From Lysinibacter sp. HNR (GTDB lineage Bacteria; Actinomycetota; Actinomycetes; Actinomycetales; Microbacteriaceae), in contig NZ_CP121684.1 of assembly GCF_029760935.1 (NCBI RefSeq), positions 558,001-622,000 on the forward strand: a stretch of DNA of 64,000 nucleotides. Direction: 5' to 3'. Shown here in pieces: positions 31,024-55,508 of this stretch. Under the pieces are notes generated by a model. The model made no database searches, had not been told where the DNA came from, and saw only the letters and a program-made list of their open reading frames with translations. Positions within the stretch are counted from its first letter, which is position 1. The number at the start of each line of letters is the position of its first letter. The position numbers were made by a program, and so were the translations under genes.

Positions 31024-31050
31024 GGTTTCCTCTCGCAACGGTGCGTCGAG

Positions 31051-31407: not shown

Positions 31408-34400
31408 TTGCTATCCACACGGTATAGGGCAGTGCGTATCTTTTTATCGGTAACTGCCGTTCTTGCCCTGGTTGGAACTATGGGTCTTTCTCATGCAAGT
31501 CCCGCTGCGGCAGAGGGGCCACCGGTGGTCTTCTCCCTGGCCGCCATTGAACCCTCAACGGGTGCTCCCCTCACAACGGTCACTGCAGACCAACAGTTCA
31601 CCTACTTGGCGAGCGTGGGCTGCCCGGATCCGGACGGATGCGGCCCGGCTACCCTCACCAGTGTGTTCCCCGCCAACATCGAGTTTCTTGCTGACAGCTT
31701 TAACCCTCCCAGCGGGGTGAAGTTCACCTTTGCACCCACGGGAGGCCCAACAACGGGTAAGACCGTCACGCTGACCTGGGAGAACCTCTCAGCCACATCA
31801 ATCGTCTACATTCCCGCGCGCCTGCACGCCGATACCCCCGCCTCCCTCAACGGCCAGGTTCAGGGCAATGTTGCAACGCTGATCGCGGGAGAAGAACCCG
31901 ACACGAGTGAGCTGAGCGCAACGAGCGATGTCACCCTGCGCCTCTACGAGAAGCCTTCGCTCACATCCGCCTCGATGGCGTGGGCCGGCAGTACCGTCAG
32001 CGATGGAAACGGAGAAACAACCTCGGTCACCACGGCGGCAGTCGCTACCGCAAACGCTCCCAGCACACTCCTCTTTGAAAGCCCCAGCTCGGAGGCCATG
32101 CCGCGAGGGGCGATTGCTGCTTCTGAAGCTTTTGATCTGAGGGGCATCACCCTCAAGCACAATCCGGCGAGTGCTGTTATCACGTTTATTAAAGCCGACG
32201 GATCTACCACCCAGACCGAGCTATCTGCTCCCGACCGCACGATCGAGGCCCCCGCCGACTCGGTGGGTTATCGTGTTTTGGTACAGGGTCTTCCCGCGAG
32301 CGGCGGCACCTCAGCGATCCAACGAACCGTGGAAATCACCGCCGAGTATCAACTGAGAGACATCCTCCGCACCTCGGGTGAGCGAATTGTTCCTCCCGCC
32401 GCCGCCTCCACCCTGGCGCGGGCGACCGCCCAGGTGACCAACACCGTCAAAGATCCGGCACCGGGATCCCCCGCAACGGCCAGCACGTCCGTGCGCTCCG
32501 ATGTCTCTATTACGGCCCTGGCTCCCACCATCGGAGGCTCACTATCGTGGATCACGGCCTCAAGCGATGATACTTCCGTCTACGGCTCCGCCGAGGCATC
32601 AACCAGCACGGTGCGGGTTTCGAACACCGGGGTTGTTCCGCTGAGCTCTCTCCGTCTCACCGCGGGGGTGACACAGGGTGACTATTTTAACTATCAGGCG
32701 CTCACCGCGGCCCCCGGGGTGACATTTCCCGCGGGCGCGGTCTCTGCCACGGTGCAGTACAACTACGCTCAAGAACCGCGTGAGGGAGCGGCGCAGCAAT
32801 TTGTGCGCGGGGAGGCGACGCCCGACACCGCGGCGGACGGGCGTAGTCTGGACGAGGTTGCCAGCGTATCCATTCTTTTTAGCGCTGCACCAGACGGGGC
32901 GATAGCGCGTGGATGCGCCCTCGCCGATGACTCCTGTGCGGGAATGATCGTTTTTGAGTCTCAGCTACGCAACACCCACCTGGCAAACGGAAGCGCGATT
33001 GTTGCTCCCCCCTCCAGCCCGGGAAGTAGATCGGTTTACAATAGCGTTCAGATTGTTGCAACAGCCTCCACCGGCGCCGTCATAACTCAGTCCACCAACG
33101 GTGCGATTCTGACCCTTGTGAAACCGCAATACGGTGCAACCCTGGTCAAGCGCCTGGGTGACGGCAGCGATGATACCTCCTACCCTCTTACGGGAGTTGC
33201 TCAGGCCGGTGATCTCTACCATGTTGGCGTCTTTCCCCAGGATTTCCGCGACCACAGGTTTAGACTGATCGCCTCAACCGAGCGGCACGAGAGGGCAACT
33301 GAAGACTCCGGCTCACCCGGGTTTACGATTGCCGACCCCCAGACAGCACCCACCGTGGAGAAGTTGGGAGAGGACCCGTTTAACTCCACCAGGTTTAGCG
33401 CTCTGTCGAATGAGCCTGTGGCCTGCCTCACCGATGGCGGCACGGCGGTGGGAAGCACCACAACAATGATGGTGTGGGTTGTTGACCGGATAGAGTCGCC
33501 CACCTCGATCACCAAGATCGACTACGTACCCGGGCAGGATCTGAGCCTGGTTGTTGGTGTTGAGTACACCGTGCTTCCCACCGATTCCGGAGGACTCTTT
33601 CCCATCAACGTGAGCTGTGAAACTCCCTCAGAAACAACCGTTAAGTTTCGCGACAGGCTCCTGACAAGCGGTGAGATTGTGTCACCCACTACGCTGGGAT
33701 CTCCCAACACGCCGGGCCTCTACTCGGTAGGAAACACCGCCGAGCTCAATACGGGAACCAACCTGGCTACCGCCACGGGAAGCGATTCACTCTACCTGCT
33801 GCTGCTTGACGCGGCCTCCATCATCAAACACTATGACACCGATGCCCCGCATAACGGTGTGCAGGGACAATCCCCGAGAACGGCCTTCCTCTTGGCAGCC
33901 GTTCCGAACGGAGACGATAGCGTCGGGGTTCGTGTCACCGACACGGGAGTACCCGGTTCATCTCTGGATATTTTCCAGCTCAACAGCGTGCGCGACGCAA
34001 AAGTGGGTCCCGACCAGGTGATGACAATCAGTCTTTTTGACCGGGAGGGAAACCCGGTGGGACCTACCGGAACCGTAATCGGGCCCACTGAGCTTGGGGG
34101 AACCCAACTCACTGCGGAGGAGATCGAAGATTCGCAGGGCCGAGCCTACCTGAACATTCAGAAGGTGAAGCGTAAGGTCACCTGGTCCGCGGAACTCACC
34201 CCGGAGCAGGCCGCGCAGGTGTATAACGTTCAGGTTGACGTGACTCGAAGCGACCCCGACGCGGTGCTTCAGCAATACGGTGCGATTTCCGTTGTTATTG
34301 ATGTGTCACTGCGTAGCCACCGTCTCAGCAACCCCAGCGCTCCCGTGGTCGGGTCGCTTGAGGGCATAAGCCACTACAACCGTTCACAGGTCTTCTCTAC

Positions 34401-37400
34401 AAAAGACGGAATCGCCTGGGCGTCTTCATACACGGCAACGGCAAGATACGAGGTGTATGCCCCGGATCGTCTGTTGGGAGACTCCGCGGTGGATTGGCGA
34501 GCGAGCGATGGTACCGACTACGTTGTGGCACAGGATCAAACTCGATCACGTATCTCACTTGAGGCCAATAATAAAACGGCCCTGGGCGTGGCCGATGTGG
34601 CCCCCGAGGATCAGTGGCAGGCCAGGGGAAGCCTCCCGGTAGGGGTGGACTCGCTTGCGGTGGGGGTTGGTGAGGCCGATGACACGGGCAAAAACCCCTT
34701 TGCGATTGTGAACTTTAGGGGCATCACTGAGGTGATCTGGCCGGAAATGAAGGATAAACCCGCAACCGGCCCTGAAAAAGATAAGAGGGTTGATGCCGAA
34801 ATTACCTACACCTATTCTGACGGCACGAGCGACGTTGTGCGCGCCCCCGTCTCGACCCCCGTGTCCGAGCTCAACCCTCCGATCGATAAGCGCCCACTGG
34901 TGGTGGGGGTCTCGATCCTGTGGAAGCAAGACGGAAAATACGTGGGAATCAAGGCAAGCGCCACCGCTGTTCAGGCGCGATTGGTGTTTGAAACGGAGCT
35001 GAGAGATCGTGTGCGAGACGGATACTCATACAATTTCCTCTCGGGAGAACCCCTGGCCCTGGCCTCCGGAGACAGCATCGACGGTGCTTATCAGGTGCCC
35101 GGTGTTCAGATAAGTCAGGTAGCTCAGGTCTCGGCAGACTACGAGACCCGCCTGCAGAACCTTGTGAAGACTCAAAACGATGCGGCGGATACCGTATCGA
35201 TTGACGTTCTCAACAGCGCTGTTGCCGTCTCCATCCGCGCCGTTTCCACCCCCATCCTTTATCGTGACAAACTTCCCACGATGGACTGGACACTGAGCAC
35301 CCAGAACACTGGTAACACCGGAGTGTCCGCCCTGAGAAGCGCAAGCCCCAGCGAACTGTTGGACGGGGAGTCCTGGCCCACCGCAGACCCCGACGGATTC
35401 TCCCTGGAGCCGGGGAGCCTCTTCGACGCGTTTAACCTGCGACTCTTTTACGTGCAGTACCCCCTGGGTGCCACCGGTGCCACCGTGTGGTTCCGCGGGG
35501 AAGATGGTGTGTGGTCAGACGGAGTGAAGGCTTTGAACCAGTACTACCTCACACCACCGCAGAGCGGAGATGGGCCCCACACCCTAGCTCAGGTGACCGG
35601 TTTCCGGGTGCAGTTCGAGGGAAACGAAGTGACCAGGTCGCGCATCTCTAAGCTCGCATCGGGTAATGTCTACTACGGCACCTCCCTGAGGGAGACGCTT
35701 CGCAGCAACCCCGAACAGCGCTCTCCCGGAGACTCCCTGCTCAGCAACCAATCGCAGTGGGCGGTTGACACGACCGGTGCGGGAGCGTCTTACCTGGGAA
35801 CCTTTGCGGCTCCGCTCGCCCAGGTGATCGCCAATCGAGCAACCGCGTACGTCCTGCCGGGAACCCCGAGCCCACTGATGCGTAAGTATGCGGGAACATA
35901 TGATGTTGCCACTAATACCGGCTCCACAACCACCCTCGCTAACCCGGGATCGTGGGCAAATTTCTACGTGGTGCTTGCCAACTCGTCCGACGCGACGAGT
36001 GATCTCTACAACCTTATGGCGGTTGATACCTTGCCGCCCGAACTCACCTATAACGCTGCAAACCCGCTGCTCAACTGGTCAGTTGTTTCGGCGCCCACGG
36101 GTGTAAGCACCACGCCAACCATGACACTTGAGCAGGGCGCACGAACCACCATGCGTTGGAGTTGGCCCGAAGATCAGATACTGAAACCCGGTCAGCGGAT
36201 TGTGCTGCGGGTGCCCCTACAGATGGTAGACGGTGTAGCCGCGGGAACAACGGGTGTTAATCATGCCCGCCTGATGGGAACGGGGATCGAGGGCGCCCCC
36301 AGCGCGTCGATCTGCCGGGATGAGTTCTCCGTGAGCGCGTCCTGCGTCTCAACTGCAAACGCCACCTCGCTGCGAAACGACTCCGTGCGTGTGGAGTCCT
36401 ACCTCAAGCAGGGCGAACTGCTCTCCGCCACCCCCGACGGGGCCGAGTGCGACCTGACTACCCGGGCGGAATGGGACGACGGGGTGTGGGTGCGTAACCC
36501 GTGCATCGTTGAAACCACCACGGGTGATGTTCTCACCTACCGGCTGAAGCTTGTAAACTCGGGTAACAACAGCGTCAGTGCCCTGCGCTTTGTGGATGAG
36601 CTTCCCGTAAAGAACGATCGGGGAACTGTCCTCGACTCACCCCGCGGATCCGAGTGGACACCCAGTCTCATACCGGGTTCCCCCCGGCTGCTCACGGGAA
36701 CCGAGGCCACTAGCCTGGGCGCGCGCGGCGACGGTGCTCTCGCGAACGACTCCTTCCGCTACTCCACAGTGGCGGATGCGTGTCACCTCAACCCCGATGC
36801 CTACGCTGGACCGGACACACTGGGCTGCGCGACGGCCTCCTGGGGCGATACCGCCCGGGACGACTCCCGCGCGCTGAGCGCCGATATTGTCTTTGGCAAT
36901 GCCGCACAGCTGCGTGGCGGTGAGTACGTGGTTGTGGAGTTTCAAATGTCCGTTCCCGCCACCTCCACGGCGGCAACCAACTCGTGGAACTCCGCAGCCC
37001 TCTCGGGTCGGATGTCGCCCGTGAGCGAGTGGATGCCGGTCTCGGAGTCCCCGCGATCCGGTTCCCGAACGCTCGACACGGGGCTCACCGTTAACCTGGG
37101 GCTGACGGATGCCGAGGTAACCCGCTGGCACCTGGGCGCCGAAAACTATCGGGTGTTCTACAGTTGCCAGCCCGTAACCGGGAACTCCGTCCCTCTCACG
37201 GGAAGCATTCTCTTTGACGGCCTGCGCTCCGTGGAGGATACGGCCTCCGAGACTCTCGCATCGCTCCCGCGTGGCGCTGCCTGTCGGGTAACCGACGAGA
37301 ACTACCAGCCGCTCAGTACCGGTGGAAGCGCCTCCGCGCACTACGGTTTGATCAGTAACGGTGCCACGGGGTACTCCTACGTGAGTGATCCCGAGTTGCC

Positions 37401-38685
37401 CCTCGTGCTGGCGGAGGACGCTCAGCAGAACCAGCTGACCGCCACCAATGTCTTTGCGGTGAGCGATCTGACAATCGGTGTTGCCACCGCCGGATCGGCT
37501 GCGGTGCACCTGCCTGACGACGCGACCTTTACTGTGACGGTATCTTGTACCTTTGGTGGGTTTGAGGAGGAGTACGGTCCCTTCGAACTCACGGTGAACG
37601 ACACGGAACAGATCGCTAACCTCCCCGTGGGAGCCGAGTGTCAGGCAACCGAGACCAATGCTCGCGGTGCGCTCGACGTCACCGCAACCGTTGATGGTGC
37701 GAGTGCCCCGCTCGACGCACAGCGCTCACTCACCGTTTCTGATCTGACCCCGGGATCACACCGGGTCGACTTCCTCAATACCTTTGACGCGGCTGCCGAT
37801 CTTACCGTGATTAAAAATGTGACCACCCCCTCCGCCACCACGGCGATGGGAGACTTTAGGTTCCTCCTGAGCTGTACCCTGGGTGGATACCCGATCGACG
37901 TTCCGAACGGCGGTGTGTTTGGGATGAGCTTCCCCGGGGGAACCGCCACCCAGAGCGTCATCTTCCCCGGCCTCCCCGCGGGAGCCGAGTGTGTGATCAC
38001 GGAGACCGATTCGGGTAGGGCCGATATCGCCGCGGACGACCGCACGGTTACCCTCCTGAGTTCGGAACCCGTCACGGTGGAGATGCTGAACGTCTACAAC
38101 CCGGCGGCACTCGAGTTGAACAACCGGGTCGAGGGTGAGGGAGCGGCGGGGCCGCGGGTTCCACAGCTCTTTGAGGTTCAGGCATCCTGTGTTCGCGAAC
38201 TCACGATCAACGGGGTTCCCACCATCGTGACCGACCTGAACGCCTCGCACTACCTGGCGCCCGGCGAGCAACTCACGGTTGGCGGGTTGCCCGCGGGAAG
38301 CCTGTGCACGGTGAACCAGATTGGCTCGTACGACGCGGACGACACAAACCACACCTCGCTCAGCGATGAGGCCCCTGATCAGAGCGATACCGCTGACAAG
38401 GTGATTGTGTCTCTGATCGGACCCGCAGCGGCAAGTTCCCCGGCAGACGGGGTGGTGAGCGCTGTGGCGAAGGGCGCTGCGGTGCAGGCTGATATGGCGC
38501 AGAGTGCCGCGCGTTCCACGCCGGTTCTTGTGGTGAACACCTATCACTCCGCCGGGCGCAATACCAATGATCAATCCCTGTCGAGAACGGGAGTGTCTCA
38601 CGATGCTCTCGGGCTTGGCCTGTTGGTGCTCCTCGGGTTAGGTGTGATCTTCCTGGTTACCAGCAGGGTGCGTCGGGCGCTCTAG
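31408..38685 (+). CDS. Giant surface protein with DUF11-like and DUF5979-like modules
   Basis: The 2425-residue protein starts with a signal peptide (FLSVTAVLALVGTMGLSHAS, probable cleavage near residue 35). The long body consists of Thr/Ser-rich beta-strand modules. One late module (around residues 1500-1610) reads like DUF11 (LANPGSWANFYVVLANSS, then VDTLPPELTYN). The last 500 residues contain about four DUF5979-like modules, each with a Cys pair (for example FTVTVSCTFGGF and LPVGAECQATE). It ends LSRTGVSHDALGLGLL, a membrane helix and RVRRAL, which resembles a sortase sorting signal with LSRTG in place of LPxTG. The TTG start has GGGGGG 6 nt upstream. It is probably a wall-anchored adhesin or surface fibre; no ligand can be proposed. 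Confidence 0.82.
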   Translation: MLSTRYRAVRIFLSVTAVLALVGTMGLSHASPAAAEGPPVVFSLAAIEPSTGAPLTTVTADQQFTYLASVGCPDPDGCGPATLTSVFPANIEFLADSFNPPSGVKFTFAPTGGPTTGKTVTLTWENLSATSIVYIPARLHADTPASLNGQVQGNVATLIAGEEPDTSELSATSDVTLRLYEKPSLTSASMAWAGSTVSDGNGETTSVTTAAVATANAPSTLLFESPSSEAMPRGAIAASEAFDLRGITLKHNPASAVITFIKADGSTTQTELSAPDRTIEAPADSVGYRVLVQGLPASGGTSAIQRTVEITAEYQLRDILRTSGERIVPPAAASTLARATAQVTNTVKDPAPGSPATASTSVRSDVSITALAPTIGGSLSWITASSDDTSVYGSAEASTSTVRVSNTGVVPLSSLRLTAGVTQGDYFNYQALTAAPGVTFPAGAVSATVQYNYAQEPREGAAQQFVRGEATPDTAADGRSLDEVASVSILFSAAPDGAIARGCALADDSCAGMIVFESQLRNTHLANGSAIVAPPSSPGSRSVYNSVQIVATASTGAVITQSTNGAILTLVKPQYGATLVKRLGDGSDDTSYPLTGVAQAGDLYHVGVFPQDFRDHRFRLIASTERHERATEDSGSPGFTIADPQTAPTVEKLGEDPFNSTRFSALSNEPVACLTDGGTAVGSTTTMMVWVVDRIESPTSITKIDYVPGQDLSLVVGVEYTVLPTDSGGLFPINVSCETPSETTVKFRDRLLTSGEIVSPTTLGSPNTPGLYSVGNTAELNTGTNLATATGSDSLYLLLLDAASIIKHYDTDAPHNGVQGQSPRTAFLLAAVPNGDDSVGVRVTDTGVPGSSLDIFQLNSVRDAKVGPDQVMTISLFDREGNPVGPTGTVIGPTELGGTQLTAEEIEDSQGRAYLNIQKVKRKVTWSAELTPEQAAQVYNVQVDVTRSDPDAVLQQYGAISVVIDVSLRSHRLSNPSAPVVGSLEGISHYNRSQVFSTKDGIAWASSYTATARYEVYAPDRLLGDSAVDWRASDGTDYVVAQDQTRSRISLEANNKTALGVADVAPEDQWQARGSLPVGVDSLAVGVGEADDTGKNPFAIVNFRGITEVIWPEMKDKPATGPEKDKRVDAEITYTYSDGTSDVVRAPVSTPVSELNPPIDKRPLVVGVSILWKQDGKYVGIKASATAVQARLVFETELRDRVRDGYSYNFLSGEPLALASGDSIDGAYQVPGVQISQVAQVSADYETRLQNLVKTQNDAADTVSIDVLNSAVAVSIRAVSTPILYRDKLPTMDWTLSTQNTGNTGVSALRSASPSELLDGESWPTADPDGFSLEPGSLFDAFNLRLFYVQYPLGATGATVWFRGEDGVWSDGVKALNQYYLTPPQSGDGPHTLAQVTGFRVQFEGNEVTRSRISKLASGNVYYGTSLRETLRSNPEQRSPGDSLLSNQSQWAVDTTGAGASYLGTFAAPLAQVIANRATAYVLPGTPSPLMRKYAGTYDVATNTGSTTTLANPGSWANFYVVLANSSDATSDLYNLMAVDTLPPELTYNAANPLLNWSVVSAPTGVSTTPTMTLEQGARTTMRWSWPEDQILKPGQRIVLRVPLQMVDGVAAGTTGVNHARLMGTGIEGAPSASICRDEFSVSASCVSTANATSLRNDSVRVESYLKQGELLSATPDGAECDLTTRAEWDDGVWVRNPCIVETTTGDVLTYRLKLVNSGNNSVSALRFVDELPVKNDRGTVLDSPRGSEWTPSLIPGSPRLLTGTEATSLGARGDGALANDSFRYSTVADACHLNPDAYAGPDTLGCATASWGDTARDDSRALSADIVFGNAAQLRGGEYVVVEFQMSVPATSTAATNSWNSAALSGRMSPVSEWMPVSESPRSGSRTLDTGLTVNLGLTDAEVTRWHLGAENYRVFYSCQPVTGNSVPLTGSILFDGLRSVEDTASETLASLPRGAACRVTDENYQPLSTGGSASAHYGLISNGATGYSYVSDPELPLVLAEDAQQNQLTATNVFAVSDLTIGVATAGSAAVHLPDDATFTVTVSCTFGGFEEEYGPFELTVNDTEQIANLPVGAECQATETNARGALDVTATVDGASAPLDAQRSLTVSDLTPGSHRVDFLNTFDAAADLTVIKNVTTPSATTAMGDFRFLLSCTLGGYPIDVPNGGVFGMSFPGGTATQSVIFPGLPAGAECVITETDSGRADIAADDRTVTLLSSEPVTVEMLNVYNPAALELNNRVEGEGAAGPRVPQLFEVQASCVRELTINGVPTIVTDLNASHYLAPGEQLTVGGLPAGSLCTVNQIGSYDADDTNHTSLSDEAPDQSDTADKVIVSLIGPAAASSPADGVVSAVAKGAAVQADMAQSAARSTPVLVVNTYHSAGRNTNDQSLSRTGVSHDALGLGLLVLLGLGVIFLVTSRVRRAL

Positions 38686-39075: not shown

Positions 39076-42000
39076 GTGAAATCTTGGGGACTTTCTATAG
39101 CCGTGCGTGCTCGTGCTGTACAGGTTTCGTTGGGGTTAGTGTTATCGGCTGCGTTGCTTGCGCCGCTTGCGGTGACAACGTCCGCGTTTGCGGTCGAGCA
39201 GGATCCTGTGGTGTCAGAAACGGCACTGGAGGACGGCGCTGCTGTTTCTGAGGAAGAAGTCTCTCCGCAAGAACGGGGGGTCTCGACTGAGACCGCACTT
39301 GAAGATGCTCCCGTAACTGAGGGTGATGCCCCGAGTGTTTTTGAGCGTTTTGTAGGGTTTGCGGATGGTGTCGCGGCAATGGTGCCCGCGGCGGAAGATC
39401 CGGTAGTGGTTCCTGTTGCCGAAGAGGGTGAGGGGCCTGTTGTAACACCGAGCCCGGGTGCTCCGCGTAATGTTGTGGCTCGGGGTGGTGTGGGTCAGGT
39501 TACGTTGTCGTGGGATGAGGCTGTGCGGTTGTGGTCTGGTCTCAAGATGGTTAATGGTACGGATCTTCCGGGGTCAGCTAGTGTTGTTGCAGTTGCTAAT
39601 TCTCGTTTGTGGGCGGTGTCTGTGTCTGCTAGCGGTGATGTGGTGGCGTTGGGTCGGCCTGGTGGTGCGTTGTATGTCTCGATTGACGGGGGTAAAAATT
39701 TCGTTGAGCAAAGTACTGGGACTACTCACTCGACTTATCCGTGGGGTGTTGAGGTTTCGGGTAACGGTCTGAAGATAATTGCGTCTAGAAATGCTGGTAC
39801 TACTAGTAGTGGTGCGGTATTTGTTGGTTCTCGTGTGTCTGAGCGGGATTCGTTTTCGTGGAAGTCTGTAGCGAGTACTGTTACTGGCGATAATTTAATA
39901 ACGAGTGTTACGAATGCGTATCCTTCGTTTCGTGTTGCTTCGTCGTTTGATGGTGGAGTTTTGGTAGCGGCGCGGCCTCGCACGGGCAGTGTTGCTAATG
40001 ATACGACGGGGCCTTTGTGGGTGTCTCGTGATGGTGGCGATTCGTGGGCAGTTTCAACGAGTGCGGGCTCGTTGGATGCTGACGGTCAGTCGTGGGTTGA
40101 TGTTGCGGTGTCTGATGATGGTACGCGGGTAGTTGCTGCACGAGCATTGGGGACAAATGCGGGTGTGTATGTGTCAGGAAACTCAGGTGCGACGTTTAGC
40201 CGGCGTACGCAGATGCCTGGTAATGGTGTGTCTGCGGTTGATCTTTCTGGTGATGGTAAGACGTTGGTGGTGGCAAGTACTAGTCGTGTGTATGTGTCAA
40301 CGTCGGACACGGCTGCTGGGTTGGGTACGACTGAGAGCTTGGTGGTTCCTGCGGGTTTCCCGACGTCTGGTACGGCGGATAGTACGTGGCGGAGTGTGGC
40401 GTCCTCGGTTGATGGTCAGCGTTTGGTTGTGGGTGGTTATCATTATTTGGGGTCGATATGGTCTTCGGATGATGGTGGAAAGAATTGGTCTGAGGAGACG
40501 AGTAGTAAGGGTTCTCCTGCGTTGTCCTCGGTAGCGATAAGGGCTGATGGGTGGAGTATTTATCGTGCTAACGGTTTACGAGACGGGATCGTTGAACACT
40601 CTTCAGTACCGCGTGATGGTGGTTCGAATCTAACGAACTTTTTGGTGGAGTACACGGATCAGGATCCGAGAGGTTCTGGGTTTACCAAGGATATGTGGCA
40701 GCCACATGTGCATGAGGCTTCGATGGATAAGTCTCGGGTGGTGGATCAATTAAAGGGTGGTACTCGGTATTGGTTCCGAGTGTCTCAGGTGAATAAGACT
40801 GATACTCCGGGAGAGCCGAGTGATGCAGCATTGGCGACAACGTTGACGACGGAGTCTGCTCCAGGTGGTGTGCCGCAAGGGTTGAAGGCTCGGGGTGGTG
40901 TGGGTCAGGTTACGTTGTCGTGGGATGAGGCTGTGCGGTTGTGGTCTGGTCTCAAGATGGTTAATGGTACGGATCTTCCGGGGTCAGCTAGTGTTGTTGC
41001 AGTTGCTAATTCTCGTTTGTGGGCGGTGTCTGTGTCTGCTAGCGGTGATGTGGTGGCGTTGGGTCGGCCTGGTGGTGCGTTGTATGTCTCGATTGACGGG
41101 GGTAAAAATTTCGTTGAGCAAAGTACTGGGACTACTCACTCGACTTATCCGTGGGGTGTTGAGGTTTCGGGTAACGGTCTGAAGATAATTGCGTCTAGAA
41201 ATGCTGGTACTACTAGTAGTGGTGCGGTATTTGTTGGTTCTCGTGTGTCTGAGCGGGATTCGTTTTCGTGGAAGTCTGTAGCGAGTACTGTTACTGGCGA
41301 TAATTTAATAACGAGTGTTACGAATGCGTATCCTTCGTTTCGTGTTGCTTCGTCGTTTGATGGTGGAGTTTTGGTAGCGGCGCGGCCTCGCACGGGCAGT
41401 GTTGCTAATGATACGACGGGGCCTTTGTGGGTGTCTCGTGATGGTGGCGATTCGTGGGCAGTTTCAACGAGTGCGGGCTCGTTGGATGCTGACGGTCAGT
41501 CGTGGGTTGATGTTGCGGTGTCTGATGATGGTACGCGGGTAGTTGCTGCACGAGCATTGGGGACAAATGCGGGTGTGTATGTGTCAGGAAACTCAGGTGC
41601 GACGTTTAGCCGGCGTACGCAGATGCCTGGTAATGGTGTGTCTGCGGTTGATCTTTCTGGTGATGGTAAGACGTTGGTGGTGGCAAGTACTAGTCGTGTG
41701 TATGTGTCAACGTCGGACACGGCTGCTGGGTTGGGTACGACTGAGAGCTTGGTGGTTCCTGCGGGTTTCCCGACGTCTGGTACGGCGGATAGTACGTGGC
41801 GGAGTGTGGCGTCCTCGGTTGATGGTCAGCGTTTGGTTGTGGGTGGTTATCATTATTTGGGGTCGATATGGTCTTCGGATGATGGTGGAAAGAATTGGTC
41901 TGAGGAGACGAGTAGTAAGGGTTCTCCTGCGTTGTCCTCGGTAGCGATAAGGGCTGATGGGTGGAGTATTTATCGTGCTAACGGTTTACGAGACGGGATC

Positions 42001-45000
42001 GTTGAACACTCTTCAGCACCGGCGTTTGGTTCTAGTGTTGATGAGTGGAAAGTGGAGTACACCACAAAGAAACCCACCGATGAGGATTTCGATCCTAAAA
42101 AAGACTGGGTACCGTGGTCTCCTGAGAAGTCTGAGGACAACAAAGAGGGCAAGGTTAAGCAGTCTCCGGTGGTGGTGAAGCCGTTGGCGAATGGGCAGGA
42201 TTATTGGTTTAGGGTTGCGGCGTCAAACACGAAGGGTGATGGCCCGTTCTCTGATCCTGCGGATGCTCGTCCGCTTGGTCCGCCGGATGCTCCCACAAAC
42301 GTGGAGACGTCGGCGGGTAACCGTGAGGTGGCGGTGTCGTGGAAGGCTCCGGTGAATGATGGTGGTTTCCCGATTGTGGATTACCGGGTGTGGTATCGCG
42401 AGGTTCCTGACCCGGAGGATGACACCGCTGAAATGCCCGGCGATCATGAGGGCTGGGACTTGTATCGGTTCGTGGATGAGGAAACCGGTGAGCCTATCCG
42501 TTCGGTGGTTTCTCCTCGCACGGTCACAGGGTTGACGAATGGTCAGTGGTACGAGTTTCGTGTGGCCGCGGTGAATGAGTTTGAGGACTCTGCACTGACA
42601 GACCCTGGTCTAGGTCCGTGGAATACCCCAGAGTCTCACATTCCGGGGACGTTAACAAAGGCTCGCCCGGCGGGTGCACCCGATGCTCCTACGCTTACGG
42701 CAGAGAAGGTGTCTCCGGGTGATGGGCACGTCCTGGTGACGTGGGATGCTCCCAAGAATGACGGTGGCTCTGAGCTGACGGGTTACCGGGTGTGGCAGTG
42801 CGAGATCACCCCAGGTGATGAGTGTTCTCCCGAAAGTAAAGGGTGGAAAGAGATTCTCCCGGACGAGGGTAACGAGCTTGAGTTGTCTCGTACCGCACCG
42901 GATTTGACGAATGGTACCGTGTACGCGTTTCGGGTGACCGCGACGAATCAGTCCGGGTGGGAGAGTGAGTCATCGGACACTGTGCGGGTGACTCCGGTGG
43001 GGGCACCACAGCACGGAGTGGTATTGAACGCCGTTCCAAAGGATGGTGAGGTGGAACTGTCCTGGGTGAAACCTGAGGATAGTGATGCGTATCCGGTGAC
43101 ACGGTACGTGGTGGAGTATCGTAAAACAACCTCAGCGGATTGGATTACCAAAGATGAGTATGTGACACAGACCAGGTTCACTGTTGATGAGTTAGATAAT
43201 GGTACGCCGTATATGTTCCGGGTTACTCCCGCGAATGTGTCAGGCTTGGGTCCTGATGCGCAGCGAGAAGCAACCCCGATTGGTGTTCCGACTCCGGAGA
43301 TGGTGGTGACTGATTTAGTGGCGGTACCGGGCAATGAGTCGGTGCGTTTGGGTTGGTCACGGGTTACGAATGACACGGTGCAGAACCCGGTAACCGGGTA
43401 TTTGATGGAGTATCAAAGCGAAGAGGCACTGACGATTCTTCCTGATGTGTGGCAGAAGCGCCCTATTGTCGCGGTTCCGGGAGATACTGTCCCGAACCTG
43501 ACGAATGGGAAGAACTATGTGTTCCGGGTTACCCCGGTTAACGGGTTAGACGGTTCGGGTCGGGGAACACCCAGTGATCAGGTAATGGCGATGCCGTATG
43601 GTCCTCCGACCTCCCATCCCGCGATCACGGATGTGACTACAGCTCCGGGGTATGGTGAGGTGTTGTTGTCCTGGACGTTAGTCACGGGCACACAGCAGGT
43701 TCCGGTGACCGGTCACCGGGTGGAGTACCGTGAGGTGGTTGATGGTGTTCCAGCCGAGCGTTGGGAACAGTATCCCACCCGGCTATTAGTCACGGATGGT
43801 TTCCTCGAAGGACAGGTGAAAGATTTCCCGGTTGAGGGGTTGAAAAATAGCCAGGAGTATCAGTTCCGGGTGTATCCGTTTAATGATCACGGGGATGGTT
43901 TAGAGAGTAATAAGCCTCGTGAGACAACGTTTGGTGAACCGCTCAAGGGTGAGAAGATCACGGATCTTCGGAGTCGTCCGGGTGATGAGGCGGTGTTCTT
44001 GAAGTGGTCCGCAGCTAAAGAGTCGGTGTTGAACCCGGTGATGGGTTACACGGTGCAGGTTCGTGACACAGATGCTACTCAGGATGATGAAGCGGGCTGG
44101 GTCGACTATGACACGAACGTGGCTTTGCCTGCTGAAGACGGTGATGGTTTCATGGTGGGTGGTCTCATCAATGGTAAGTCGTATGATTTCCGGGTAGCCC
44201 CGACCAACACTATTGGTAGAGGTGATTGGAGTGACCCGAAGAGTGAGATCCCGGTGGGTTCGTTAACGGAAGCACCTGTTATTACGGATTTGAGTGGGGT
44301 GCCGGGTCGCGGCCAAGTGTTGTTGTCGTGGACGGGTGTGCCGGACACGGAAGAGACTCCGGTGACGGGGTACCGGATTGAGTATCGCCTGGTGGTGGAT
44401 GGTGTCCCAGAAGATCAGTGGACACCCTACCGGGGAACCGAGAACGTGGACGGGTTCTTCGTGCCGCAGGCAGAACGCTTTGACAACTACCCGGTGACGG
44501 GCCTTGCGGATGCGAGTATGTATGACTTCCGGGTTGTGCCGTTCAATATCAGAGGGGATGGGCTGTCTAGTAACGAGGTTCGTGAGGGTACGTTTGGGTT
44601 GCCGTTGACGGATGAGAAGATCACGGATCTTCGGACTCGTCCGGGTGATGAGGCGGTGTTCTTGAAGTGGTCCGCAGCGAAAGAGTCGGTGTTGAGCCCG
44701 GTGGCAGGTTACACGGTGGAGTACCGTAAAACAGATAACACCCTTGGTCCTGAGGAGGGATGGGACCCCTATGCCACGAATGTGGCTTTGCCTGCGGAAG
44801 ACGGTGACGGTTTTACCGTTGGTGGCCTCACGAATGGTCAGTCGTATGATTTCCGGGTGGTTCCGACGAATACTGTGGGCAGGGGTGTGCCAAGTACACC
44901 TAAGAGTGAGATCCCGGTGGGTTCGTTAACGGAAGCACCCGCGATTACAGACCTGAGCGGGGTGCCTGGCCACCGACAAGTGCTTCTGTCATGGACGGGT

Positions 45001-48000
45001 ATGCCTGACACGGAAGAGACTCCGGTGACGGGTTACCGGATTGAGTATCGCCTGGTTGTGGATGGTGTCCCGCAAGATCAGTGGACAACCTACCGGGGGC
45101 CTGAGAACGTGGATGGGTTCTTTGTGCCGCAGGCAGAGCGTTTTGACAACTACCCGGTGACGGGCCTTGCAGATGCGAGTGTGTATGACTTCCGAGTTAT
45201 CCCGTTCAATACGCGTGGTGACGGACTGCCCAGTAACGAGGTTCGTGAGGGTACGTTTGGGTTGCCGTTGACGGATGAGAAGATCACGGATCTTCGGACT
45301 CGTCCGGGTGATGAGGCGGTGTTCTTGAAGTGGTCCGCAGCGAAAGAGTCGGTATTGAACCCGGTGACGGGTTACACAGTGCAGGTTCGTGAAACAGATA
45401 ACACCCTCGGTCCCGATGAGGGTTGGGGTGACTATGACACGAATGTGCCTTTGCCTGCTGAGGACGGTGACGGTTTCACAGTTGGTGGGTTAACCAATGG
45501 TAAGTCGTATGATTTCCGGGTGATCCCCACGAACGCTGTGGGTGATGGTGTGCCCAGTGACCCGAAGAGTGATACCCCGTATGGTCCTGTTCTTGCGGAT
45601 ACGAAGGTGACCGATCTGACCGCGGCTGCGGGCCACACATCAGGAATCGTGGTATTGAACTGGAGCCGGGCCGGGCACACGGAGACGAACCCGGTGCTGG
45701 AGTACCAGATTATGTACCGTGTGGCTGTTGGTGAGGATGAAGAGGAGAATTCGTGGAGTCCGTATAAGAAGAGGGCTCCGGGGGATGAAACCCGCAACTT
45801 TTTGGTGGAGGGGTTGACGGATGGTGACCGGTATGAGTTCCAGGTGATCCCTGTGAATGGGCATAGCACGGGGCCAGAGAGTAACACTGCGGACGCGGTA
45901 CCGTATGGTGCCCCCTCACAAGACAACGTTATTGATGATCTGAAAGCGAAGCCGGGTTCCGAGAAAGTGACCTTGTCCTGGACCAAGGCGCAGGGCACAC
46001 TCGCACAGCCGGTGACGGGATACACGGTGCAGTACCGTAAAACGGTTGAGGGCCAGGGCCCTGAAGTCGGGTGGGGTAGTCACGCGACGAATGTTACGAA
46101 CACGAAAGACTTCGTGGTGGAGCCGTTAGAGAATGATCAGCCGTATGATTTCCGGGTGATTCCGACGAATGATCGTGCAGAGGCTGGAAAGGAAAGTAAC
46201 ACGGACACAGCCACCCCACGGGTCGCGGTGACAGTGGATGATGTGTCCCTCAATGTGCACGCGGATACGGTGGCACGGTTCAATGCTCTAGAGTACGTGA
46301 CGGGTGAGAACTCTCCCGCCCTGGTGAGCGTGGATAACCTGACCCCGGATGAGGGAAGTATCACGTTTGATACGCAAACGGGTGAGATAGCGTATACCCC
46401 CACCCAGGATTTCCCGGCGGGTGAGGTGACAAAAACGGTATCGTTCACGTTCACGGTGCGAGATGCGTCAGACGCAGAAGACACCGGCACTGTCTCTATT
46501 ACGGTGTACGTGGTTCCGACGGCCGGGGCGGATCGTGTGGTGAAGGTTCCCGCGAGTAGTGAAACATTACTTCCCGTCCTCGCAGATGCGACAGGGTATA
46601 ACCTGACTCTGGTTGACCCGGTAAGCCCTGTTCCGGAGCAGGGTTCTGTCCGGGTGGGCTCTGACGGGCTGTACTACACGGCGACAAATTCTGCTGTGAC
46701 GACGACGGATTCGTTCTCGTACCGGGTGAAAGACGGCCTGGGGCGGGAATCCGAGACCGCCACGGTCAGTGTGAGGATTCAGGGTGTCCCGTTGGCAGCT
46801 GATGATGAGATGAACGCGGGCCTCACCGGCACGGGGACGATTCTGCTGGGTGAGAAGTATGCGTTCTCGACCATTGCTGATCTGCTCAAGAGCAGCGTCA
46901 CGGTGGGTCAGGGGCAATACGGCACAACAGAGTTCGACAAGGCTTCAGGCCGTGTGATCTATACGACGGGGCAGGTTCCTGATGGTGTGATGGAAGACAC
47001 GTTTACGTATACGCTCACGGATGATCTGGGTCAGGTTGCGACCGGTACGATCACGGTGAAACTGGTCGAGGGCCCGGTGGTGACTTCCACGATCCGTGAG
47101 ATCGGGGTAAAGGGTGAGGTCACGGTTGATCTGAACGACCTCGCTACGGGTGAGGGCATCACCATTGCCGGCTTCGGTGGGGCCTTAGGGGCTGTGGTTG
47201 AAGATCCGGACGCGAAGGGTGTGGTGACGTATACTCCGAAGCGGGACTTCACCGGGTATGACGCGTTCGCGTACGAGGCCAAGGATATGTATGGTCAAAG
47301 CGCGTTTGGTGTGGTGCGGGTCACGGTGTTCAGCCTTCCTCAAGCGGTGGATTACAAAGACCTGGTGGTGAAGCAGGACGGACTATTGGTTCATAACGTG
47401 TTTACCAACGATGAACAGGCCCCGGATGTGGCTGCCACGGTGTCTCCCACAAACACGACAGGCACCCGGGCAGATGCTCAGGCAATTGATGTTCAGGAAA
47501 CTGATGTTCAGGTATCGAGTGTGGAGGATGCCCTGAAGGATATTCCGCAGGAGTCTCGTGTGGTGTATGCGCCGAAGAGTGTGGTGGCGATTGAGCAGGC
47601 GATCAATGGTCACACGGAGGTCGTGGATGGTGCTGCCGGGTTGGTGCGGTATCAATCTGCTCTGGGGAACTATCTTCCTGACACGGTGAAGTACCGGGTA
47701 GAAGACAGTGTGGCGCAGGCTGTGTCGGGTGAGTTAGTGTTCACCGTGCAGACGCTCCCTGAGGTAACGGGTGACTCGAAGGGTGAGGTGGCACAAGACA
47801 GCGCCTACGAGTTCACCCCGGAAGTGGTTACGACGGGATCGCTGCAGAACGTGTCGCTTCAGGCTCCGGTTCAGGCCCCGGGTGGGGTGTTTACGGGTCG
47901 GGTAGAAACCGGACTAGGTGCTGTTCCGGGCACGGGAAGCATCCGGTTTGTGGCGGGTGATACTCCCAAGGGTGTGTATCGGTTCACGGTGGACTTCACG

Positions 48001-48930
48001 GATAATCTCGGACAGGTCACCTCGGTGGAGTACGAGGTGAAGGTGTTCACGAAGTTGAGTGTGCAGGATCAGGGCAAGAAGGTTGCGGTTAACGGAAACG
48101 TCCGTTTTGACGAGGCCGTGAGTGTTGACGGTGAGATTAAGGAACGCCACGCACAGGCCCTAGACGCTGAGGAGATGGTTCGTGGTGGTCACGGTTTCAC
48201 CGGAGATATCACGAAGCATGTCAGCCTGGATCAGGATGGTGTGGTGTCGTTTGACGCGGACGGGTTAGCACCCGGAACGTATGGGTTCAAGGTGAAGTAC
48301 ACGGATGATCGTGACTTGACCGCGACGGCGAAGTACACGGTGACGGTGCAGGCCCCACCCACGGGTGAGGGCAAAACAATCACTGTTCCGTTGGGTGTGA
48401 GTCCGGTGGTGATTGACCCGTTCGCAGACATCACCGGTACCGGGTTGCAGGCGCTTCGTGAGGAAGACCTGGATGAGGCCGAGTACGGTCAGGTGGCTCT
48501 TGCTGCGCAGGTTGATGGTCGGACTGTGGTGCATTATGTTCCAGAAACAGACCGGTTAGGGTCTGACGAGTTCACGGTGCGGGTGTTTGATGATCTTGGC
48601 CAGAGTGTCGAGGTCACGTACACGGTTGTGGTTGTTCCGGTGGGTCAGGATGAGGACACCCCGGGTACGGGCGAGGGTGAGGATATCCCGGGTACCGTGC
48701 TTGAAGGCCCGGACGCCGGGTTGCAGAACACCGGTTCGGGTGGTTCTGAGGCGACACGGTTAACTCTCACGGGTGACACGTCGTTGCCTGTGCTGGGTGC
48801 CTTCGGAATGCTGTTGCTGGTACTCGGGGCTGGTTTTGTGGTGATTCGTCGTCGGAGGAATACCGCAGCATCCGCGGCAGTGTCTGTATCGGTATCCGTT
48901 GTGGGGCAGGGGTCGGTGACAGAGGAGTAG
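39076..48930 (+). CDS. Giant surface protein: beta-propellers nested in FN3 domains, FN3 array, Ig-like repeats
   Basis: From GTG 39076 (AGGGGA 9 nt upstream; GTG and not the frame start at 39010) the protein has 3284 residues. It has a signal peptide (VSLGLVLSAALLAPLAVTTS, cleavage after about residue 39) and an acidic spacer. Two units follow (about 130-590 and 600-1065). Each starts as an FN3 domain (ARGGVGQVTLSWDEA), is interrupted by seven Asp-box-type blades (SIDGGKNF, SRDGGDSW, SSDDGGKNW and others), and resumes as FN3 (FLVEYT, TRYWFRVSQVNKT). Twelve ordinary FN3 domains follow (about 1069-2380), then several Ig/cadherin-like repeats to about 3190. The end has LQNTG, then LTLTG just before a membrane helix, RRRR and an unusually long 27-residue tail. 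It is probably a wall-anchored adhesin that binds glycan or polymer. Confidence 0.85.
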   Translation: MKSWGLSIAVRARAVQVSLGLVLSAALLAPLAVTTSAFAVEQDPVVSETALEDGAAVSEEEVSPQERGVSTETALEDAPVTEGDAPSVFERFVGFADGVAAMVPAAEDPVVVPVAEEGEGPVVTPSPGAPRNVVARGGVGQVTLSWDEAVRLWSGLKMVNGTDLPGSASVVAVANSRLWAVSVSASGDVVALGRPGGALYVSIDGGKNFVEQSTGTTHSTYPWGVEVSGNGLKIIASRNAGTTSSGAVFVGSRVSERDSFSWKSVASTVTGDNLITSVTNAYPSFRVASSFDGGVLVAARPRTGSVANDTTGPLWVSRDGGDSWAVSTSAGSLDADGQSWVDVAVSDDGTRVVAARALGTNAGVYVSGNSGATFSRRTQMPGNGVSAVDLSGDGKTLVVASTSRVYVSTSDTAAGLGTTESLVVPAGFPTSGTADSTWRSVASSVDGQRLVVGGYHYLGSIWSSDDGGKNWSEETSSKGSPALSSVAIRADGWSIYRANGLRDGIVEHSSVPRDGGSNLTNFLVEYTDQDPRGSGFTKDMWQPHVHEASMDKSRVVDQLKGGTRYWFRVSQVNKTDTPGEPSDAALATTLTTESAPGGVPQGLKARGGVGQVTLSWDEAVRLWSGLKMVNGTDLPGSASVVAVANSRLWAVSVSASGDVVALGRPGGALYVSIDGGKNFVEQSTGTTHSTYPWGVEVSGNGLKIIASRNAGTTSSGAVFVGSRVSERDSFSWKSVASTVTGDNLITSVTNAYPSFRVASSFDGGVLVAARPRTGSVANDTTGPLWVSRDGGDSWAVSTSAGSLDADGQSWVDVAVSDDGTRVVAARALGTNAGVYVSGNSGATFSRRTQMPGNGVSAVDLSGDGKTLVVASTSRVYVSTSDTAAGLGTTESLVVPAGFPTSGTADSTWRSVASSVDGQRLVVGGYHYLGSIWSSDDGGKNWSEETSSKGSPALSSVAIRADGWSIYRANGLRDGIVEHSSAPAFGSSVDEWKVEYTTKKPTDEDFDPKKDWVPWSPEKSEDNKEGKVKQSPVVVKPLANGQDYWFRVAASNTKGDGPFSDPADARPLGPPDAPTNVETSAGNREVAVSWKAPVNDGGFPIVDYRVWYREVPDPEDDTAEMPGDHEGWDLYRFVDEETGEPIRSVVSPRTVTGLTNGQWYEFRVAAVNEFEDSALTDPGLGPWNTPESHIPGTLTKARPAGAPDAPTLTAEKVSPGDGHVLVTWDAPKNDGGSELTGYRVWQCEITPGDECSPESKGWKEILPDEGNELELSRTAPDLTNGTVYAFRVTATNQSGWESESSDTVRVTPVGAPQHGVVLNAVPKDGEVELSWVKPEDSDAYPVTRYVVEYRKTTSADWITKDEYVTQTRFTVDELDNGTPYMFRVTPANVSGLGPDAQREATPIGVPTPEMVVTDLVAVPGNESVRLGWSRVTNDTVQNPVTGYLMEYQSEEALTILPDVWQKRPIVAVPGDTVPNLTNGKNYVFRVTPVNGLDGSGRGTPSDQVMAMPYGPPTSHPAITDVTTAPGYGEVLLSWTLVTGTQQVPVTGHRVEYREVVDGVPAERWEQYPTRLLVTDGFLEGQVKDFPVEGLKNSQEYQFRVYPFNDHGDGLESNKPRETTFGEPLKGEKITDLRSRPGDEAVFLKWSAAKESVLNPVMGYTVQVRDTDATQDDEAGWVDYDTNVALPAEDGDGFMVGGLINGKSYDFRVAPTNTIGRGDWSDPKSEIPVGSLTEAPVITDLSGVPGRGQVLLSWTGVPDTEETPVTGYRIEYRLVVDGVPEDQWTPYRGTENVDGFFVPQAERFDNYPVTGLADASMYDFRVVPFNIRGDGLSSNEVREGTFGLPLTDEKITDLRTRPGDEAVFLKWSAAKESVLSPVAGYTVEYRKTDNTLGPEEGWDPYATNVALPAEDGDGFTVGGLTNGQSYDFRVVPTNTVGRGVPSTPKSEIPVGSLTEAPAITDLSGVPGHRQVLLSWTGMPDTEETPVTGYRIEYRLVVDGVPQDQWTTYRGPENVDGFFVPQAERFDNYPVTGLADASVYDFRVIPFNTRGDGLPSNEVREGTFGLPLTDEKITDLRTRPGDEAVFLKWSAAKESVLNPVTGYTVQVRETDNTLGPDEGWGDYDTNVPLPAEDGDGFTVGGLTNGKSYDFRVIPTNAVGDGVPSDPKSDTPYGPVLADTKVTDLTAAAGHTSGIVVLNWSRAGHTETNPVLEYQIMYRVAVGEDEEENSWSPYKKRAPGDETRNFLVEGLTDGDRYEFQVIPVNGHSTGPESNTADAVPYGAPSQDNVIDDLKAKPGSEKVTLSWTKAQGTLAQPVTGYTVQYRKTVEGQGPEVGWGSHATNVTNTKDFVVEPLENDQPYDFRVIPTNDRAEAGKESNTDTATPRVAVTVDDVSLNVHADTVARFNALEYVTGENSPALVSVDNLTPDEGSITFDTQTGEIAYTPTQDFPAGEVTKTVSFTFTVRDASDAEDTGTVSITVYVVPTAGADRVVKVPASSETLLPVLADATGYNLTLVDPVSPVPEQGSVRVGSDGLYYTATNSAVTTTDSFSYRVKDGLGRESETATVSVRIQGVPLAADDEMNAGLTGTGTILLGEKYAFSTIADLLKSSVTVGQGQYGTTEFDKASGRVIYTTGQVPDGVMEDTFTYTLTDDLGQVATGTITVKLVEGPVVTSTIREIGVKGEVTVDLNDLATGEGITIAGFGGALGAVVEDPDAKGVVTYTPKRDFTGYDAFAYEAKDMYGQSAFGVVRVTVFSLPQAVDYKDLVVKQDGLLVHNVFTNDEQAPDVAATVSPTNTTGTRADAQAIDVQETDVQVSSVEDALKDIPQESRVVYAPKSVVAIEQAINGHTEVVDGAAGLVRYQSALGNYLPDTVKYRVEDSVAQAVSGELVFTVQTLPEVTGDSKGEVAQDSAYEFTPEVVTTGSLQNVSLQAPVQAPGGVFTGRVETGLGAVPGTGSIRFVAGDTPKGVYRFTVDFTDNLGQVTSVEYEVKVFTKLSVQDQGKKVAVNGNVRFDEAVSVDGEIKERHAQALDAEEMVRGGHGFTGDITKHVSLDQDGVVSFDADGLAPGTYGFKVKYTDDRDLTATAKYTVTVQAPPTGEGKTITVPLGVSPVVIDPFADITGTGLQALREEDLDEAEYGQVALAAQVDGRTVVHYVPETDRLGSDEFTVRVFDDLGQSVEVTYTVVVVPVGQDEDTPGTGEGEDIPGTVLEGPDAGLQNTGSGGSEATRLTLTGDTSLPVLGAFGMLLLVLGAGFVVIRRRRNTAASAAVSVSVSVVGQGSVTEE
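39477..40606 (+). repeat. 1,130-bp direct repeat, copy 1
   Basis: This segment is identical to 40887-42016 as far as I can compare line by line. It encodes the first strands of an FN3 domain and a whole seven-bladed propeller. The flanking parts of the same FN3 domains differ, so the identity stops sharply at both ends. Confidence 0.92.
40887..42016 (+). repeat. 1,130-bp direct repeat, copy 2
   Basis: Second copy, offset by 1,410 bp from the first. In-frame duplication keeps the reading frame. Recombination between the copies would delete exactly one propeller unit (470 codons). Confidence 0.92.
43951..45276 (+). repeat. 663-bp tandem repeat of FN3 pairs
   Basis: Two successive 663-bp units (43951-44613 and 44614-45276) each encode a pair of FN3 domains of alternating type: one with ITDLR, RPGDEAVFLKWSAAKES and DFRV, the next with ITDLSGVPG and GYRIEYRLVVDGVP. 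A third unit begins at 45277 and covers only the first FN3. The copies are similar but not identical. Confidence 0.85.
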
Positions 48931-49116: not shown

Positions 49117-50001
49117 CTAAAGAACCTCAAGCATCCCGGGTACGCTTTGCACACGTGCAACCGTAGCGACGGCCAGGCCAAGCGCGGTGCAGGCGCGAGC
49201 CGAGGACTCTCCGATGCACACAAGTTGGGTTGTGTGGGGCAGGGGAGCAAGCTGTTCTGCAACCTGCGTGGCCACGCTCGCGCTCGTGATGAGGATCACG
49301 TCAACCCCGCCATCGGTTACTCGCTGACGCTCTTCGGGAGAAAGCCTAACCGGTACCGTCTGATAGGCCTCCACCCGTTGAACGCTGAGGCCCAGCTTGT
49401 GGATGCCGTCCGCGAGGGTGGGCGGGGAAAGCTGAGATCCCAGGACAAGAGCGGATGATCCCCTGCGATCGCGTGGCCATTGCGCCACCAGGTCCGTGGC
49501 AGAGCTGGTTCCCGAAGGCACCAGGTCAACCCGAAACCCGACCTGCGTGAGGGTGTGGGCCGTGGCCTCTCCCACCGCGGCAACACGGGTTTCCGGGGGA
49601 AGAGCGGCGGCGTAGTTGGCAACCGGGGGAACCGCGTTGGCACTGGCCACTACAAGCCAGTCAAACTCGCTTGCGCTCAGCCGTTCAAGGGCCGTGTGGA
49701 GCTCCTTCGGTGTGCCGCTCGGTGCCGTGGTGATAAGCGGAACCATGACGGGAATAAAGCCACGCTCGTGAACCTGCCGTGCCGCGCGTTCTCCCCACTC
49801 CCCGCCGCGGGGGATGAGAATGCGCGGTGCGTTGGCAGGGGGAAAAGCGTGAGCGTCGGTGGGCGGAGTTGTACGCGTGTTGCCGTGTATATCGGTGTAC
49901 GGAGTCTCGTGTGCGTTGCCGTGTGTGTTGGCTTGCGGAATATCGCGTGCGGTATCGCGCGGGGTGCCGTCACGGCGCTTATCGCGATCGCGGCTCATCA
50001 T
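49117..50001 (-). CDS. hemD: Uroporphyrinogen-III synthase
   Basis: HemD closes the hydroxymethylbilane ring with inversion of ring D. The 294-residue protein has the two-lobed layout with PRILIPRGGEWGERAARQV, FDWLVVASANAVPPV, VAAVGEATAHTLTQVGF, then VQRVEAYQTVPV and ILITSASVATQVAEQL. HemD is poorly conserved, so position between hemC and the end of the run adds weight. Odd: the first 58 residues are a Thr/His/Asn/Arg-rich low-complexity extension with near-repeats (PPTDAHA, PYTDIHGN) and no internal start to avoid it. The ATG directly abuts the hemC stop. Confidence 0.9.
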   Translation of the reverse strand: MMSRDRDKRRDGTPRDTARDIPQANTHGNAHETPYTDIHGNTRTTPPTDAHAFPPANAPRILIPRGGEWGERAARQVHERGFIPVMVPLITTAPSGTPKELHTALERLSASEFDWLVVASANAVPPVANYAAALPPETRVAAVGEATAHTLTQVGFRVDLVPSGTSSATDLVAQWPRDRRGSSALVLGSQLSPPTLADGIHKLGLSVQRVEAYQTVPVRLSPEERQRVTDGGVDVILITSASVATQVAEQLAPLPHTTQLVCIGESSARACTALGLAVATVARVQSVPGMLEVL

Positions 50002-51009: not shown

Positions 51010-51013
51010 AGGA

Positions 51014-52791: not shown

Positions 52792-52795
52792 AATG

Positions 52796-55401: not shown

Positions 55402-55422
55402 AGGTTTTATTCTTTCAGAAAA

Positions 55423-55428
55423 ACTATA
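55423..55428 (-). promoter_or_regulatory. Possible -10 box of the hemE operon
   Basis: On the minus strand TATAGT lies 21 nt before the hemE ATG, leaving room for a short leader with GAAAG as a weak ribosome binding site. No clear -35 is seen. Confidence 0.38.
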
Positions 55429-55495
55429 AAACGTGGTGTGACCGGGATAGCGGCTTTCCTGAGCGTGTATCCAGGAAGAAGTGTGATGTAGCGGT

Positions 55496-55501
55496 TAGAA
55501 T
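55496..55501 (+). promoter_or_regulatory. -10 box of a leaderless hemA promoter
   Basis: TAGAAT is followed by 7 nt and the GTG at 55509. There is no ribosome binding site between, so the hemA transcript probably starts at or next to the GTG. Confidence 0.58.
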
Positions 55502-55508
55502 CGTAGCC

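Follow-up and report, generated by a model that had tools for sequence, protein, structure and literature searches.

Seven-bladed Asp-box-type propellers apparently nested in fibronectin type III domains of a wall-anchored surface protein of Lysinibacter sp. HNR, and within-gene recombination as the likely source of their identity

In the genome of Lysinibacter sp. HNR (family Microbacteriaceae), a giant surface protein raises two questions: can a whole beta-propeller be housed within a single fibronectin type III (FN3) domain, and why are two such units identical over 1,130 bp of DNA when the FN3 segments that follow them differ? The gene lies within a stretch of 64,000 nucleotides (assembly GCF_029760935.1, contig NZ_CP121684.1, positions 558,001 to 622,000 of the forward strand), referred to here as the window; all coordinates are window positions and are collected in Table 1. 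Each unit in this protein opens with 21 residues resembling FN3 strands A and B, continues with a propeller of 360 residues, and closes with 89 residues resembling FN3 strands C to G. Two units (W1 and W2) open the protein and are followed by 12 uninterrupted FN3 domains, Ig/cadherin-like domains, and an LPXTG-type sorting signal. We consider it probable, rather than assured, that this is a wall-anchored surface protein with seven-bladed, Asp-box-type binding heads in its FN3 B-C loops and that recombination within the gene homogenizes these heads. The initial annotation had the unit occurring twice, which is correct for the giant gene at 39076-48930; genome-wide, there are 11 units in three giant genes, namely, the two of the window protein, two (A1 and A2) in paralogue A (an open frame of 1,747 codons), and seven (B1 to B7) in paralogue B (L010; an open frame of 5,113 codons).

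The proposal that the propeller breaks an FN3 domain at the B-C loop was assessed with two profile models. The first was built from 20 uninterrupted FN3 domains, 12 of the window protein and 8 of a paralogue. The first halves of all 11 units matched this model from positions 11-13 to position 30, and the second halves of all 11 matched it from a start at positions 31-41. The joined halves outscored either half alone in every unit. For each unit, 200 controls were prepared by placing either a shuffled first half (100 controls) or a propeller fragment (100 controls) before the second half; the joined score lay above all 200 in 9 of the 11 units, and the scores of B2 and B4 were reached by 3 and 6 of the 200 controls, respectively. 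The second model, Pfam fn3 (PF00041), was applied to 10 units (B6 was left out) with no shuffled control. It matched the joined halves of all 10 units, 9 of them above the 25-bit cutoff and A1 at 24.6 bits, with matches spanning profile positions 2-4 (10 in B3) to 77-83 of 84. Second halves alone passed the cutoff in 5 of the 10 units, with matches starting at profile positions 20-31 (51 in B7), and joining added between 1.3 and 9.9 bits in all 10. Nesting of the propeller within FN3 is thereby well supported in sequence.

The insert matches, in its predicted fold, a seven-bladed propeller of the Asp-box type. A first AlphaFold model, based on an alignment of two rows, was useless, with a mean predicted local distance difference test (pLDDT) score of 47.6. 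The second, an AlphaFold2 model, used a 12-row alignment (A5) in which viral relatives were included and trimmed to keep the seven blades in register; it reached a mean pLDDT of 58.5 and a predicted template modeling score (pTM) of 0.62, with blades 3 to 7 mostly at 65-87. When this model was compared with known structures by VIA-align, residues 43-389 fell on 285 of the 286 residues of a designed seven-bladed propeller (7big_A; Z score, 26.7; root mean square deviation [rmsd], 3.0), and the other rows listed had Z scores of 25.3-26.5. Weak matches to Pfam BNR and to Pfam Sortilin-Vps10 were each obtained in 7 of the 11 units, with best expectation (E) values of 5.1e-8 and 2.2e-7, respectively. 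Asp-box motifs, counted with a strict or a loose pattern, number two to four in each of the 11 units (four loose and two strict in the unit shared by W1 and W2) and do not occur in every blade. Of the seven blades with Asp-box motifs described earlier, the number of blades thus agrees with the fold match, and the motif is absent from some of them. We infer that a conserved N-terminal stretch, RxWSGL, forms the last strand of blade 7 and that the two ends of the propeller join there. Unit B5 bears on this assignment: so few residues separate its FN3 B strand from blade 1 that hardly any other candidate for a closing strand is left.

Direct comparison of the two copies of the identical block bore out both the 1,130 bp and the sharp limits given for it. 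The copies have no mismatches over their full length and are offset by 1,410 bp (470 codons); a match of this length is not due to chance. Outside the block, agreement in 25-bp steps falls immediately to 4-10 bases upstream and to 6-11 downstream, apart from the step that straddles the block end (14 of 25), and 21 of the first 60 nucleotides past the block agree. The 5' limit lies within FN3 strand A, at unit codon 6/7, and the 3' limit lies 4 bp beyond the propeller boundary as cut. As such, the propeller is identical as described, and strand A is identical only from codon 6/7 on. The second FN3 parts do differ, those of W1 and W2 being 42% identical.

Paralogue B offers a second instance. 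Within units B5 to B7 lies an identical 2,551-bp repeat, longer than the block in the window, at an offset of 1,482 bp (494 codons). B7 diverges after 1,069 bp, and the duplication that links B5 and B6 extends over the entire unit, including the second FN3 half. Because identical repeats are present in both the window gene and paralogue B, the same kind of event has occurred in at least two genes. No exact matches of at least 30 bp were found between the three unit-bearing genes. The 5' limit of identity falls at unit nucleotide 17 in both W1/W2 and B5/B6, between strand A codons 6 and 7; the 3' limits differ, at codon 382-383 in the window gene and at about codon 362 in B6/B7. Two events cannot establish the shared 5' limit as a hot spot.

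The propellers and the second FN3 halves have different histories. The propeller tree groups sequences by gene (W1 with its identical W2, A1 with A2 at 63% identity, and B5 to B7 at 96-100%), and the second-half tree groups them by position in the array, joining W1 with A1 (54% identity) and W2 with A2 (63%) and B7. The second halves of A1 and A2 are 44% identical. Approximately unbiased (AU) tests on the second halves rejected grouping by gene for W1+W2 (P = 0.00036), A1+A2 (P = 0.00054), and B5-B7 (P = 0.005). The corresponding test on the propellers, in which W1 and W2 were left free as identical rows, rejected W2+A2+B7 (P = 3.6e-7). Recent duplication, gene conversion, and selection for a swappable cassette had all been suggested for the identical block; recent recombination is upheld, and because the propeller and second-half trees conflict, conversion within the gene is favored. 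We attribute the identity over 1,130 bp to within-gene recombination, most likely gene conversion, in which the propeller was copied but not the second FN3 half. On the simplest account, the ancestral gene would already have possessed both an internal and a terminal unit, and later recombination within each gene would have overwritten the propeller. Gene conversion would accomplish this in one step, and two unequal crossovers could do so as well. In paralogue B, the whole-unit duplication of B5/B6 would have come on top of propeller homogenization.

Two simpler origins of the identical block were weighed against these data. A recent tandem duplication of the whole unit, after which the second FN3 half diverged under positional selection, would account for the in-frame spacing of 1,410 bp, and B5 and B6 demonstrate that whole units, second half included, can be duplicated in this family. 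In the window gene, however, second halves with 42% identity directly adjoin 1,130 bp without a mismatch, and they pair with their counterparts in paralogue A (W1 with A1 and W2 with A2) in place of each other, the AU test rejecting W1+W2; we regard such a duplication as improbable here. Exact identity over 1,130 bp is also what an assembler would produce if it had duplicated the block. An artefact of this kind is very improbable: the genome is a single 2.92-Mb contig and 99.9% complete, which argues against assembly error, the flanks differ between the copies, and the distinct second FN3 halves have positional counterparts in two other genes.

Other alternatives concern the architecture and activity of the units. 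If the FN3 domains were circularly permuted, each set of C-G strands would pair with the A-B strands of the next unit, making the propellers linkers and not inserts. Strands C-G of the first unit do directly precede strands A-B of the second in the chain, and a linear profile cannot separate the permuted from the nested arrangement. As cut, however, the arrays begin with A-B and end with C-G followed by another domain (by eye), so that under permutation each array of the three proteins would have two halves without a partner, and under nesting none; in addition, the stretch from strand G to the next strand A resembles, by eye, the linkers between uninterrupted FN3 domains. We think permutation unlikely. 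A wall-displayed hydrolase resembling sialidases, GH74 enzymes, or carrageenases would be consistent with the presence of Asp boxes and with several database matches: among sequences of solved structures, a GH74 xyloglucanase gives the best match to the propeller profile (133 of 367 positions covered; E = 1.2e-5), followed by the BNR glycosyl hydrolase 3b7f (E = 0.009); the first Foldseek row is likewise a GH74 enzyme (E = 3.3e-12), with a poor superposition (template modeling scores, 0.37/0.27; rmsd, 7.1); and a lambda-carrageenase propeller model finds a weak match in one unit of the 11 (E = 0.0027). GH74 xyloglucanases have two tandem propellers with catalytic aspartates, and GH33 sialidases have the RIP motif and a pocket with an arginine triad and a nucleophile. 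Against a hydrolase, a pattern search for the RIP motif ([FYVLW]R[ILV]P) gave no match in any of the 11 units, solved sialidases appeared in the profile search only at E values of 0.14 or worse, similarity was limited to parts of the propeller, and a single-sequence search of solved structures returned nothing below an E value of 0.6. A catalytic sialidase, as one reading of the previously suggested sialidase-like propeller, is rejected on the first two of these grounds. An enzyme therefore appears less likely than a binding head, and a hydrolase of any of these types is rather unlikely.

The wall anchor, the long stalk, and the placement of the heads at the N-terminal tip suggest a binding protein, and the likeliest role for the propeller would be that of a head on this stalk that binds without enzymatic action. 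In our preferred account of propellers nested in FN3 B-C loops, each head would sit to the side of the stalk, with the chain running on through an otherwise ordinary FN3 domain. The ends of the propeller would come together in blade 7, leaving the FN3 domain able to close, and the second FN3 half would stay fixed by packing against the next domain. An FN3 domain has its B-C loop at the N-terminal pole; because the C terminus is in the wall, the heads would point away from the cell. Their putative ligand, possibly a polymer such as a glycan, would be bound and not cleaved. Some loops are conserved between the paralogues and might line a ligand pocket (e.g., blade 6 has a G-x-H loop in 7 of 8 units compared); a shared ligand would be consistent with this conservation. 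Asp-box propellers are reported to use their top face for function (PMC2716378). A broader interpretation would make the three paralogous arrays a display scaffold, in which FN3 B-C loops carry the heads and recombination with a preferred 5' limit in strand A copies or swaps them while sparing the second FN3 half, yielding a head-swapping adhesin system of variable copy number; we advance this tentatively and consider it doubtful at present. With repeats that are in frame, ongoing recombination would be expected to change copy number in steps of 1.41 kb in the window gene and of 1.48 kb in the 5,113-codon paralogue.

Several observations weigh against nested heads homogenized by recombination. 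Joining the halves under Pfam fn3 gained little in B2 (2.0 bits) and B3 (1.3 bits). The break at the B-C loop is well supported in sequence, but neither structure model shows the two FN3 halves closing into one domain: both leave the first FN3 half at pLDDT values below 50, and the second model makes residues 23-37 a helix. In the second model, confidence is just as low (pLDDT below 50) for residues 117-160 in blades 2-3, its A5 alignment, made with MAFFT, misplaces part of blade 3, and its first propeller strand comprises residues 46-50, in a low-confidence part and outside the RxWSGL stretch. As for the trees, no branch of the second-half tree attains starred support (W1+A1 and W2+A2+B7 each have 89/91), identical W1 and W2 propellers leave W1+A1 and W2+A2 outside AU testing of the propellers, and the AU groups were named after the first tree had been seen, so that the P values are to be taken with some reserve. 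Finally, the unit is known from one genome, which affords no view of strain variation.

This restricted distribution emerged from several genome draws, which overlap and include the HNR genome itself; scoring in the profile draws was limited to no more than four or five candidates in each genome. Across draws from the family, order, class, and phylum, a full nested unit or a full propeller match was found in the HNR genome only. A one-protein search of 59 relatives, a sample without another genome of the same genus, gave one match (HNR), as did a propeller profile against 396 phylum genomes at an E value of 1e-10 and a unit profile against 394 class genomes at 1e-15. Against 396 order genomes at 1e-6, the propeller profile gave two matches, HNR and a partial match in genome G1066 that by eye is not a split FN3. 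At the permissive threshold of 1e-3, the unit profile matched 72 of 398 family genomes, HNR included; for the other 71, nearly all matches listed are in the second FN3 half (profile positions from about 332). Four of the longer family matches (L023, L030, L033, and L042) proved by eye to be uninterrupted FN3 domains and were rejected as nested units. Blades were matched in genomes G234 and G340, together with one FN3 in G234. Plasmid and phage records gave no match at 1e-3. Genome contigs yielded none by the one-protein search and five weak loci by the unit profile; viral contigs yielded one weak locus by profile, none with L016 as the query, and only the query itself with L021. Restriction to one genome may reflect sampling. 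Among the full-text literature matches listed, judged by titles and the starts of abstracts, there was no account of a propeller nested in FN3.

The individual parts of the protein are known. Like other FN3-rich, LPXTG-anchored surface proteins of Gram-positive bacteria, it combines a stalk of tandem FN3/Ig-like domains with a C-terminal sorting signal; in those proteins, binding domains are usually separate tip modules and are not nested in stalk domains. Viral Asp-box propellers (IMG/VR loci such as L063, L066, L124, and L129), selected for runs of about six Asp boxes, align with the unit blade by blade; their blades are more regular, and they are 23-35% identical to W1 in 10 rows aligned. 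By eye, blade 1 of L063 and of L066 is preceded by a short stretch, to which RxWSGL would correspond in the unit. In proteins of the viral contigs L129, L124, and L120/L080, such runs of about six Asp boxes number two or more, as expected of several propellers in a row. Variation in the Mycoplasma genitalium adhesin reportedly arises by recombination between gene copies; in the protein described here, the copies are in tandem inside one gene. Sequence variation of that adhesin gene is treated in PMC2169797. The Asp-box propeller family (PMC2716378) likewise combines the propeller fold with Asp boxes in some blades, and its "type 2" has a domain inserted into the propeller, whereas here the propeller is the insert and FN3 is the host; the word fibronectin is absent from the main text of that paper. 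In agreement with the initial annotation, we find it unusual for a whole propeller to be inserted in an FN3 loop, and the split between the histories of insert and host domain is unusual as well.

The remaining features of the gene conform to a wall-anchored protein. Over the full length of the protein, Pfam recognizes 14 fn3 stretches. The sorting signal, recognized by TIGR01167, scores 19.3 bits with Pfam Gram_pos_anchor, just under the cutoff of 20, and the genome has two sortase matches (PF04203) over cutoff. Within the FN3 stalk, positions 43857-45482 comprise three tandem copies of a 663-bp period, approximately a pair of FN3 domains, with 77-79% identity between copies over a 300-nucleotide reference stretch; these tandem repeats imply that the stalk, too, grows by duplication. 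Directly upstream (31408-38685, plus strand) is another giant surface protein, of 2,425 amino acids, with DUF5979 and an LPXTG-like tail. Downstream (49117-56906) is a heme synthesis cluster with ferrochelatase and a chlorite-dismutase-type protein, which offers no functional hint. Farther upstream (28465-31038, minus strand), beside ABC-transporter genes, a single open frame of 857 amino acids has matches to ROK and then to GFO/IDH/MocA oxidoreductase domains, possibly a gene fusion.

Table 1. Features of the giant surface protein gene, in window coordinates
Feature	Coordinates	Strand	Remarks
Giant surface protein	39076..48930	+	3,284 aa from GTG 39076; frame open from ATG 39010
Nested unit W1	39460..40869	+	470 codons
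W1 FN3 strands A-B (first half)	39460..39522	+	Positions 12-30 of FN3 model; joined Pfam match
Identical block, copy 1	39477..40606	+	1,130 bp
W1 propeller	39523..40602	+	360 aa; seven blades by fold match
W1 FN3 strands C-G (second half)	40603..40869	+	Internal type
Nested unit W2	40870..42279	+	470 codons
W2 FN3 strands A-B	40870..40932	+	FN3 model and Pfam
Identical block, copy 2	40887..42016	+	1,130 bp
W2 propeller	40933..42012	+	Protein sequence identical to that of W1
W2 FN3 strands C-G	42013..42279	+	Array-terminal type
Stalk, 12 uninterrupted FN3 domains	42280..46212	+	Cut by motif and by eye
Ig/cadherin-like stalk (Big_9, Cadherin_5)	46213..48768	+	Pfam; limits approximate
LPXTG-type cell-wall sorting signal	48769..48861	+	TIGR01167, 21.1 bits (cutoff, 15.9)

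If the nesting holds in structure, the protein would represent a means of mounting a large binding domain on a tandem stalk without an end-to-end linker. The FN3 B-C loop is an engineered site in monobodies, and these units would then provide a natural model for grafting whole domains into that loop. With 11 units in one genome, and with propellers and FN3 halves that differ in their histories, within-gene conversion of surface heads becomes directly testable.

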